Shown: piece after piece, positions 24,382 to 29,719 of the stretch
Position numbering within the stretch: position 1 is the first letter of the stretch
Layout of the letters: each line of letters opens with the position of its first letter
Source: an uncultured Bacilli bacterium
GTDB taxonomy: Bacteria; Bacillota_I; Bacilli_A; RF39; UBA660
Direction: 5' to 3'
Assembly: GCA_947626125.1 (NCBI GenBank)
Contig: CANQRA010000006.1
Coordinates: 1 to 38,614 of the forward strand
DNA length: 38,614 nucleotides
The notes under the pieces: model-generated
The model's database searches: none
Seen by the model: the letters and a program-made list of their open reading frames with translations, nothing else
What the model was told of the DNA's origin: nothing
Position numbers and translations under genes: made by a program

Positions 24382-24932
24382 TGAAGTTACCAGATATAAA
24401 AATTTTAGATGAAAAAAATAAAATATTAAGAACTAAAAGCAATGAAGTAACATTTCCTTTAACAAAGGAAACTCGAAAAACAATTGAAGATGCCATTACT
24501 TACTTAACTATGAGTCAAATAAAAAAATATTATGAAAAATATAATTTAAGACCAGGAATGGGACTTTCTTTTATTCAATTAGGTATTCCTAAAAATATCT
24601 TTGTAATTGTTGAGGAAGTAGATGAAGAAAAATTTGAAAATTATATTATAATAAATCCTAAAATGATTAGTCATAGTGAAGAGTTAATTTATGTAGGAGA
24701 AGGTGAAGGTTGCTTATCAGTTAACCGGGAAGTAATAGGTATTGTTCCTAGGTATGCAAGAATGACTATCTCTTATCAAGATATGGATGGCAATAAAAAA
24801 GAAATTAGAGTAAGAGAAGATATATCGGTAGCTTTCCAACATGAAATGGACCACTTAAATGGTATCCTATTTATTGATAAAATAGATAAAAATAACCCTT
24901 TTAAAGATAAAGAAAAAATGCGTGAAATATAA
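24381..24932 (+). CDS. def: Peptide deformylase
   Basis: Removes the N-formyl group from nascent proteins with a metal ion. It has 183 residues. Motif 2 EGCLS and motif 3 FQHEMDHLNGILF (HEMDH metal site) are intact. Motif 1 is GMGLSFIQ rather than the usual G-x-G-L-A-A-P-Q; the essential glutamine is kept. AGGAG lies 9 bases before the ATG. It ends with its stop in the loop of a terminator. Confidence 0.9.
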   Translation: MKLPDIKILDEKNKILRTKSNEVTFPLTKETRKTIEDAITYLTMSQIKKYYEKYNLRPGMGLSFIQLGIPKNIFVIVEEVDEEKFENYIIINPKMISHSEELIYVGEGEGCLSVNREVIGIVPRYARMTISYQDMDGNKKEIRVREDISVAFQHEMDHLNGILFIDKIDKNNPFKDKEKMREI

Positions 24933-24942
24933 CGCATTTTTT
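24913..24942 (+). terminator. Terminator of def, embedded in the gene end
   Basis: AAAAAATGCGT (24913-24923) pairs with ACGCATTTTTT (24932-24942); 8-base loop. The TAA stop (24930-24932) lies at the loop/stem boundary. Confidence 0.85.
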
Positions 24943-25084
24943 CTGTTCGTTAGCCCTCGATTTTGTTCCACGCTTCCCTTAGCCCTAACATTACTGTTAA
25001 TGCTTTGCGCTTCTCTAACACTTCTTCGATACCTACGCGTGTATTGGACTTTCACCAACTAGATATATGTCATGCACGACACAC
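24943..25084 (-). mobile_element. 5' fragment of a group II intron
   Basis: Read on the minus strand, it starts GTGTGTCG (25084-25077), matching the group II 5' consensus GUGYG, then shows the domain I hairpin TTGG-TGAAAGT-CCAA (about 25058-25044) and further domain I-like text with a GCTAACGAACAG segment near the end. It stops at about 24943, next to the def terminator; no intron-encoded reverse transcriptase or domain V is in the window, so it is a truncated remnant. It begins directly after a terminator T-run, the target choice of class C introns. Confidence reflects pattern recall without an alignment. Confidence 0.65.
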
Positions 25085-25086
25085 AT

Positions 25087-25145
25087 AAAAAGCTAGCAGA
25101 ATGAGCTAGCCGTACCAATCGGGTAACGCTTAATGCGTTCTCCTA
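25087..25145 (-). ncRNA. Small RNA unit, copy 1
   Basis: Between a minus-strand promoter and a terminator lies about 59 bases: an AATAGGAG start, hairpin AACGC-ATTAA-GCGTT, a short GTACC-like hairpin, and the terminator GCTAGC (25110-25105)/GCTAGC (25097-25092) with T-run 25091-25087. No ORF of note. The promoter plus first hairpin recur at 29660-29716 with about 4 mismatches over about 66 bases. Here the region beyond the terminator is the intron fragment, so no partner gene remains. Confidence 0.55.
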
Positions 25146-25151
25146 TTAATA

Positions 25152-25180
25152 ATTTTAACATATTAATTTTTATTATACAA
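25152..25180 (-). promoter_or_regulatory. Promoter of small RNA copy 1
   Basis: Minus strand TTGTAT (25180-25175), 17-base spacer, TAAAAT (25157-25152). Same arrangement as at 29681-29709. Confidence 0.7.
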
Positions 25181-25205
25181 TTACTTTTTTATGAAAATAT
25201 CTGAA

Positions 25206-29326: not shown

Positions 29327-29412
29327 TATTAAATTGCTTAAAAATTATGTGCCAAATCTCTAGAAATTTGGGCAAAAAACTGCAACTTTTTTATTTTTTT
29401 AACTTAAAACTA

Positions 29413-29441
29413 TTTACAAAAACAATTAAAACTGCTTTAAT
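29413..29441 (+). promoter_or_regulatory. Candidate promoter of the small toxin-like ORF
   Basis: TTTACA (29413-29418), 17-base spacer, TTTAAT (29436-29441). Predicted start near 29448 puts an 80-base leader before the 29530 start codon. Confidence 0.55.
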
Positions 29442-29465
29442 AAAGCCTAGGAGGACGAATTTAAG

Positions 29466-29537
29466 TTGTTGCCTAAAACTTTTTTTGAAGAAACTCAGTG
29501 GGTTTTGGATAGGAAGGTGGTGGGTGCCAATGAATAA
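29466..29537 (+). CDS. Possible leader ORF overlapping the toxin-like ORF
   Basis: A 23-codon frame starting TTG 29466, ending TAA 29535-29537, overlaps the start of the 29530 ORF by 8 bases. A perfect AGGAGG (29449-29454) lies 11 bases before it and is otherwise unexplained. Such a translated leader overlapping a toxin gene is known in hok/mok. The peptide itself has no recognised motif, and the spacing is on the long side, so this is a candidate only. Confidence 0.3.
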   Translation: MLPKTFFEETQWVLDRKVVGANE

Positions 29538-29628
29538 GAAATGTCGTGAAGATATATTATTATTTATTGTCTTTATGTTAGTCTTAACTCTGTTAATATT
29601 AATCATAAAAACTAGCCCTTTGAATTAG
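29530..29628 (+). CDS. 32-residue hydrophobic peptide, candidate type I toxin
   Basis: Sequence: a short polar N-terminus with two lysines and an arginine (MNKKCREDI), one membrane helix (residues about 10-27, LLFIVFMLVLTLLILIIK), polar tail TSPLN. AAGGTGG (29514-29520) lies 9 bases before ATG. Length, charge and topology fit small membrane-acting toxins of type I systems (TxpA/BsrG/Hol_Tox-like), though no sequence family is assigned. A convergent small RNA (29606-29674) overlaps its final codons and 3' untranslated region. Confidence 0.55.
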   Translation: MNKKCREDILLFIVFMLVLTLLILIIKTSPLN

Positions 29629-29674
29629 CAATAGGCTAGTTATCCCAACAGGCAACGCTTAATGCGTTCTCCTA
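29606..29674 (-). ncRNA. Small antisense RNA, copy 2
   Basis: From a predicted start near 29674, it includes the hairpin AACGC/GCGTT shared with copy 1, a variable segment, and the terminator AACTAGCC (29617-29610 read on the plus strand) with GGCTAGTT (29634-29641), 16-base loop, T-run 29611-29607. About 23 bases are complementary to the 3' end of the 29530 ORF. Together with copy 1 it is a duplicated promoter-RNA-terminator unit. Confidence 0.55.
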
Positions 29675-29680
29675 TTTATA

Positions 29681-29709
29681 ATTTTAGCATATTAATTTTT
29701 TATATACAA
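29681..29709 (-). promoter_or_regulatory. Promoter of small antisense RNA copy 2
   Basis: Minus strand TTGTAT (29709-29704), 17-base spacer, TAAAAT (29686-29681). Confidence 0.7.
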
Positions 29710-29719
29710 TTACTTTTTT

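Follow-up and report, generated by a model that had tools for sequence, protein, structure and literature searches.

A unit of about 300 bp at positions 29410-29712 of a contig from an uncultured Bacilli bacterium (CANQRA010000006.1, assembly GCA_947626125.1; the whole stretch of 38,614 nucleotides analysed is called the window) probably belongs to a chromosomal, multi-copy family of type I toxin-antitoxin systems, in which the toxin mRNA would close 5' to 3' and its leader would compete with the antitoxin RNA for one site in the 3' untranslated region (3' UTR). A preliminary description of this DNA had proposed a type I system not obviously matching a described family, and a type I system outside the described families is indeed the best reading, given the conservation of both open reading frame (ORF) and RNA, the apparent purifying selection, the covariation and the lack of any convincing library match. 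The known type I systems would gain a high-copy, lineage-specific family from uncultured Bacilli. More important than the family itself would be its RNA layout, as the toxin message opens with a copy of the antitoxin's targeting sequence.

The repeated unit, its peptide and its antisense RNA

A DNA search of the genome that holds the window (1.24 Mb in 92 contigs) returned nine full-length matches to the unit as well as partial ones, and the nine copies aligned colinearly from promoter to promoter. Unit matches were found by DNA search in 9 of 38 genomes of the genus, and an nhmmer profile built on the nine copies identified 34 full copies in seven genomes plus 14 partial ones (locus L034 was left out of the copy counts as it overlaps L027); some copies stand in tandem. 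The search of related genomes for the pair of ORF and RNA, which had been named as a check of the locus, found both kept together in the 34 full copies.

The putative toxin promoter (29413-29441, + strand) reads TTTACA-17 nt-TTTAAT and the convergent promoter of the antisense RNA (29681-29709, - strand) TTGTAT-17 nt-TAAAAT (29709-29681), each with TGC before the -10 hexamer. Both stand at the coordinates first given for them, and the convergent pair is kept in the 34 full copies, across which ATTTACAAA of the toxin promoter is unchanged; together with the antisense 5' hairpin, the two promoters are the most conserved parts of the unit. A simple consensus scan listed neither promoter nor the antisense terminator, because the hexamer pairs and the long loop fall outside its search criteria, and the nine promoter-like sites in the region were no excess over shuffled sequences (6.8, standard deviation 2.4). 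Hence, the case for the promoters and the terminator rests on conservation.

The toxin ORF (29530-29628, + strand) starts with ATG downstream of the Shine-Dalgarno sequence AAGGTGG (29514-29520, + strand) and encodes 32 amino acids, which translation, conservation and modelling together describe as a single hydrophobic helix. The ORF, AAGGTGG, the antisense terminator and, further upstream, an AGGAGG (29449-29454, + strand) and a leader frame (29466-29537) were all present where the preliminary description had placed them. The one-helix character was borne out by a single-sequence model, which predicted one helix over residues 3-28 with a mean predicted local distance difference test score (pLDDT) of 89, and the ORF is kept in relatives. 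An ATG ORF of 28-36 codons was present in 32 of the 34 full copies, the two exceptions being a G029 copy that starts with TTG and one G025 copy with a 5-nt deletion; copy C2 of the window's own genome, counted among the 32, carries an extra base in the hydrophobic core. Among 28 distinct ORFs, the median ratio of nonsynonymous to synonymous substitution rates (dN/dS) was 0.235 and every computed ratio was below 1 (327 of 378 pairs were usable; the other 51, with at least 70% differences, were excluded, ratios were taken only at dS >0.05, and C2 with its core indel was retained). Mismatches per site at codon positions 1, 2 and 3 amounted to 0.27, 0.17 and 0.43. Judged by these substitution patterns, the peptide is under purifying selection. 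A peptide profile matched 12 of the 38 genus genomes, one of them (G011, a single match) apparently spuriously. Candidate peptide relatives in the family's other genera, weak matches in 3 of 291 genomes, were judged spurious as well; two lay within long open frames and one was a short fragment with a stop.

The antisense RNA (29604-29677, - strand, with putative ends) would be about 74 nt long and form two hairpins, the second being the stem of an intrinsic terminator (29610-29641, - strand) followed by a T-run. A 5' hairpin and a terminator with its T-run were found in 41 antisense RNAs, namely those that passed a terminator threshold (at least six T by construction); three more failed it, two of them at contig ends, and one without the 5' motif was skipped. 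Since the mRNA strand has no more than three T in the eight bases past the stem in 41/41 of the RNAs kept, the terminator appears to be one-directional. In an alignment of 40 antisense RNAs (A4, which leaves out L019:1896-1975), 96.8% of cells were paired and 7 of 18 pairs were altered on both sides in a compensatory manner, values that 0/500 shuffles reached in either case. Promoter, terminator and conserved structure of a type I RNA gene were thus all found at the sequence level. Compared with 200 shuffles, both transcripts also folded unusually well (antisense strand 29590-29680, z = -4.0; mRNA 29430-29680, z = -5.9), with 0/200 shuffles as low in either.

The mRNA leader and its predicted pairing with the 3' UTR

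The mRNA opens with ~27 nt that have the same sequence and sense as the antisense RNA's first ~25 nt. Because the leader (29448-29474, + strand) repeats the antisense 5' hairpin in this way, it is complementary to a segment of the mRNA's own 3' UTR (29650-29674, + strand), which would be the pairing target of both leader and antisense RNA; at the DNA level, leader and 3' UTR form two inverted arms of ~25 nt each, ~175 bp apart. When all 23 leader:3' UTR pairs of the helix predicted for the window were counted over the copies, 90.2% of cells were formed, and 8 pairs and 29 cells were altered on both sides (among 500 shuffles, 0, 2 and 0 reached the paired fraction, the both-side pairs and the both-side cells, respectively). 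In a 14-pair core, which was picked after the per-pair counts were seen, whereas the 23-pair count takes all pairs, 98.5% of cells were formed as compared to 44-54% when the arms were slid, and both sides had changed in 4 pairs (11/500 shuffles as high) and 13 cells (0/500).

The leader was also examined outside the training set of R1, a covariance model of 68 positions built on the antisense RNA alone, which matches the window at 29602-29677 (a training member). R1 found matches in 17 of the 38 genus genomes and, among 193 genomes of the family, in two of other genera (G058 and G156). Genomes without a training sequence held 44 matches, of which 38 were tested (five in G018 and one in G020 were left out) for a property absent from R1, namely a leader complementary to the 3' UTR and upstream of a small ORF, with real and shuffled sequence windows scanned equally. 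At 32 of the 38 loci the best leader:UTR duplex lay below all 40 shuffles by more than 2 kcal/mol; three of these loci (in G018, G020 and G026) were already known by peptide search, and in G058, which belongs to another genus, the leader test was passed at 4/5 loci. R1 recovered members that the peptide profile had missed, so antisense-RNA models may reveal hidden type I systems elsewhere. The leader:UTR pairing was seen even with another peptide. At some loci of G032, G022, G008 and G031 the RNA chassis is kept and the small ORF differs, and the two such peptides that were scored were much less hydrophobic. At L200, L202, L213, L217, L252 and L258-L266, the place of the toxin on this chassis is taken by another small basic peptide (MKLNIFGFLKVMIFLSS... 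and its relatives).

The predicted leader:UTR pairing was kept even in subfamilies that have diverged strongly. Over five groups (34 main copies, six of G018 and two each of G020, G026 and G003), cognate duplexes had means between -24.6 and -32.3 kcal/mol against -8.3 to -12.0 with shuffled leaders, the main copies giving -32.3 against -9.4 kcal/mol; the leaders of the divergent groups, with few copies each, had been chosen by eye or from the leader test. Pairing of a leader with the UTR of another group gave -8 to -19 kcal/mol, except for the mutually similar G020 and G026 (-25.6 and -27.0). The 200 differences between antisense RNA and leader in the main family include 118 transitions that keep the UTR pairing by G-U and 16 that break it, and in 13 divergent loci the corresponding figures were 34 and 10 of 92 differences. 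These differences argue for pairing at the RNA level over terminal repeats of a mobile element. Self-folding was predicted to be weaker in the leader than in the antisense 5' domain in 34/34 main copies and in 12/13 divergent loci, where the leaders were slightly shorter than the stretches compared.

The likeness to mok/hok drawn in the preliminary description stood in part. The leader frame is present, but leader ORFs near the AGGAGG ranged from none to 57 codons across the 34 copies, and a mok-like coupled leader frame was rejected since the frame is not conserved; the GGARGA part of the AGGAGG region belongs to the base-paired element. A hok-like 5'-3' fold-back of the mRNA, on the other hand, is predicted.

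Folding predicted that the ribosome site is locally buried in every state, with an opening cost of ~12-14 kcal/mol (~13 in the window). Leader removal lowered this cost in 29/32 copies, and trimming of the 3' UTR changed it little. These predictions tend to argue against a switch of the SR4 type and argue only mildly for a leader-dependent inert form.

In the scheme we propose, one promoter would give an mRNA of ~230 nt, with a presumed 3' end, that encodes a one-helix membrane-type peptide expected to inhibit growth, and the convergent promoter would give an antisense RNA complementary to the mRNA 3' UTR, with its own terminator placed inside the last part of the ORF. The full-length mRNA would close 5' to 3' and be poorly translated, its Shine-Dalgarno sequence being locally buried as well, and it would be hidden from the antitoxin, because leader and antitoxin would bind the same 3' UTR target in competition. 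If the leader were lost, the antitoxin could reach the 3' UTR and the ribosome site would become slightly more accessible, and the net outcome may be that toxin is made only when the antitoxin is scarce. The conserved arrangement is most economically read as a competition between leader and antitoxin for a single site in the 3' UTR; the removal of the leader, the toxicity of the peptide, the reach of the mRNA through the 3' UTR and the sequence of events in vivo are steps that we infer. With this scheme it becomes testable what decides between storage, silencing and translation of a toxin message, and how cells stop many homologous type I pairs from silencing one another.

A number of observations weigh against the proposed toxin-antitoxin family and its mechanism. 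The peptide is much less hydrophobic in some relatives, and 6 of the 38 R1 loci fail the leader test; L196, L198, L201 and L263 have no leader, L218 is truncated by a contig end, and L219, the one R1 locus in G156, is probably a false match. Further pair types in the 14-pair core numbered 9 as compared to 8.1 in shuffles (141/500 as high), the differences between leader and antisense RNA include transversions (66/200 in the main family and 48/92 in the divergent loci), and the copies share ancestry, so that changes counted in different copies are not independent of one another. Leader removal brings only a small gain, 1.9 kcal/mol on average and 0.3 in the copy of the window. Blocking the 3' UTR, as the antisense RNA would, raised the cost of opening the ribosome site in 13/32 copies, with a mean fall of 0.6 kcal/mol; an antisense-triggered refolding of the ribosome site, considered as a candidate mechanism, thus finds no support in folding. 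No 5' processing site was found in the mRNA. Since a scan of the region gave no clear mRNA terminator but only a weak plus-strand site, we likewise infer that the mRNA contains the 3' UTR.

Linker variation, orphan antisense RNAs and the upstream palindrome

The linker between terminator and 5' hairpin of the antisense RNA is the most variable part of the unit, with a mean pairwise difference of 0.68 among the 34 copies and 0.81 among the nine of the window's own genome. In two in-genome pairs of G015, identical from the promoter to codon 27, the linkers differ by 30% and 50%, and three between-genome pairs with a core divergence of 5-10% have identical linkers. Against a role of the linker as copy tag stand one in-genome pair of G034 with identical linkers and three between-genome pairs at no more than 5% core divergence that differ by ~0.4 in the linker. 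Over all closest pairs, in-genome and between-genome linker means were similar. At core distances below 0.05, the mean linker distance was 0.35 within genomes (nine pairs, one identical) and 0.39 between them (three, none identical), at 0.05-0.1 it was 0.36 within (three pairs, none identical) and 0.16 between (five, three identical), and beyond 0.1 no difference was seen. The pattern is only suggestive of diversifying selection on the linker, and copy specificity through a variable antisense linker is possible.

The window also holds an orphan antisense RNA without toxin ORF (25082-25148, - strand; promoter at ~25152-25180), which was matched by nhmmer at 25085-25183 and by R1 with 61.5 bits (E 3e-12; it, too, is a training member) and has a terminator. 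Further orphans with promoter, 5' hairpin and terminator were seen at L019:1896-1975, L058:1015-1081 and L031:1324-1390; three orphans lie upstream of a full copy, and that of the window lies ~4.3 kb from one. Such RNAs could act in trans on paralogues. Conservation of the RNA without the ORF, which the preliminary description had held to speak against a toxin-antitoxin locus, was found only for these orphans and for the relatives with a different small ORF. Near the orphan of the window, at 24890-25000 (- strand), there is a borderline match to group-II-D1D4-3 of Rfam (32.3 bits; gathering score 32).

A near-palindrome of 20 bp, CCAAATCTCTAGAAATTTGG (29352-29371, no strand), lies 41 nt upstream of the toxin -35 hexamer and is a candidate operator. 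It is present in 8 of the 9 own-genome copies, and elsewhere in that genome it occurs, at no more than one mismatch, only before a clpC gene. Sites with up to three mismatches were found in 10 of the 38 genus genomes, as compared to none in all 38 for a control pattern. In 5 of the 38 genomes no clpC match was obtained, and 30 of the 33 genes found were compared; the exact palindrome core stands in 5/30 clpC promoters (L054:1883-1902, checked with Pfam, L086:2358, L092:2326, L096:2309 and L104:2371), which belong to G000, G012, G015, G028 and G034, all with the main family, and by eye the G029 clpC promoter has a degenerate palindrome. G018 has 17 sites (15 of which were read), arrayed at intervals of 33 or 66 bp ahead of its divergent toxin copies, and none at clpC. 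The palindrome common to toxin units and clpC promoter hints at stress control of the toxin units, and a stress regulon around it is possible. A palindrome with three mismatches was also seen upstream of ssb (L100 by Pfam; L114 and L088 by similar translation), and PD-(D/E)XK transposase-like genes follow the palindrome at L087 (Pfam), L099 and L103 (similar translation). Before the leader, loci of other subfamilies (L195, L197, L203, L212, L214 and L165) have another motif in common, around GACAAAAnTTGTCAAAA. The GACAAA-type repeats upstream of the toxins of other subfamilies are no feature of the 30 clpC promoters, of which two have single GACAAA-related hexamers, besides two in palindrome genomes.

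Taken at its boldest, the family would represent a new regulatory class, with an mRNA 5' decoy of its own antitoxin that competes for the 3' UTR site, swappable ORFs, fast-changing linkers as tags that keep up to nine paralogous pairs of a small genome apart, and a shared operator that links the pairs to protein-quality control (clpC); we offer this tentatively and on balance rather doubt it.

Relation to known systems and alternative explanations

Rfam gave no match to the locus at the gathering score; six weaker ones appeared up to E 10, none of them a type I antitoxin by name. Five peptides had no match in Pfam, and the window peptide had none in PADLOC or NCBIfam, where four other peptides matched far below the cut-off only (E 0.16-3.7); in PHROGs the window peptide had one weak match (E 1.1) and two other peptides none. 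Searches of the open-licence literature in PubMed Central (PMC) turned up no account of such a family, nor of any leader copying its antitoxin.

In TxpA/RatA and BsrG/SR4 of B. subtilis, the antisense RNA lies across the ORF's 3' end and the 3' UTR. The same convergent geometry, an antisense RNA over ORF 3' end and 3' UTR, had been pointed out for the window from the start; it is correct and is kept in relatives, but no sequence relation to these systems was found in the Rfam, Pfam and NCBIfam scans. SR4 binds the 3' UTR according to the accessible part of PMC12390103, which mentions no leader copy of the antitoxin. As for a burial of the ribosome site on antisense binding, as with SR4, folding gave no clear sign of it here, the predicted opening cost rising in 13/32 copies and falling on average. 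In hok/Sok, the antisense RNA targets the 5' leader, whereas here it covers the mRNA 3' end; the present family shares the 5'-3' fold-back of the full-length mRNA with hok/Sok, in silico, and lacks a conserved mok-like frame. As described in the available text of PMC6733600, long-distance pairing of mRNA 5' and 3' ends gives a presumed inert full-length form in hok/Sok and aapA/IsoA; the pairing hides the Shine-Dalgarno sequence, as shown for aapA, and 3' trimming activates the mRNA. In contrast to hok and aapA, the paired leader starts 60-108 nt upstream of the start codon here. By analogy, the proposed scheme would amount to hok logic with the ends exchanged.

A further resemblance in outline that has to be weighed is that to par/Fst of pAD1 and the chromosomal Fst loci, which, as far as the accessible part of PMC7472228 describes it, has convergent promoters, a one-helix peptide of ~33 aa, a short antisense RNA and intramolecular structure in the toxin mRNA, all of which have their counterparts here. 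That the locus is a divergent member of par/Fst is nevertheless hardly credible to us. According to the same text, the par transcripts share one bidirectional terminator, and direct repeats allow RNA II to pair at the translation start, whereas here the terminator is one-directional and serves the antisense strand only (at most 3 T of 8 on the plus strand, 41/41) and the repeat is inverted, so that the antisense RNA copies the leader and does not complement it. In addition, no PXXXG-type motif (P/D/S/TXXXG) was seen by eye in the hydrophobic core of 24 aligned peptides, some of which have T..G spacing only in the C-terminal tail, and there was no match at a curated cut-off or in Rfam. The family is thus type I-like, with an RNA layout that lacks some tested features of par/Fst and of hok/Sok.

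Two further explanations do without a toxin. The many dispersed copies, the ~25-nt inverted arms and the tandem copies would also suit a mobile repeat resembling a miniature inverted-repeat transposable element (MITE), of which leader and 3' UTR would be the terminal inverted repeats and the peptide an incidental part. We regard this as very improbable, as both conserved promoters, and in most copies also the palindrome, lie outside the arms, the ORF appears to be under purifying selection, the antisense terminator covaries and the transitions in the arms favour G-U pairing, which is an RNA property. Somewhat better placed, yet still unlikely, is a small membrane regulator or signal peptide under the control of a cis-antisense RNA; the copies mostly lie between apparently ordinary chromosomal genes (21 regions inspected, judged from translations), and the palindrome common with clpC in five genomes suggests a physiological role. 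However, nine copies that each have their own antisense RNA, the orphan antisense RNAs, the buried ribosome site and the exchange of peptides on one RNA chassis fit a toxin-antitoxin family better.

A phage, plasmid or viral origin of the unit was rejected, as the DNA unit gave no match in phage and plasmid collections and neither DNA pattern nor peptide alignment matched viral contigs. In a named genome collection, from which records of the window's own genome were possibly excluded, the DNA pattern matched 28 stretches, 27 of them in metagenome-assembled genomes (MAGs) of uncultured Bacilli bacteria, whose isolate names start with 'Lapin', which suggests a rabbit source; the 28th, in a MAG titled Alphaproteobacteria, had no RNA-model match and was taken as chance.

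Among the neighbours of individual copies, an ORF resembling by eye a conjugation coupling protein (L048:2-1276) adjoins one G012 copy, and a Fic-domain gene (L102:336-1022) divergently adjoins one G034 copy. In relatives, several copies are preceded by a divergently oriented repeated gene for a protein of ~456 aa (L042:1-1372 and L046:1-1370), for which no match reached a curated cut-off; similar starts were seen in L026, L035, L052 and L102. One G018 copy, at L109:2286 onward, is broken after leader and spacer by a sequence on the opposite strand that reads like a group II intron reverse transcriptase.
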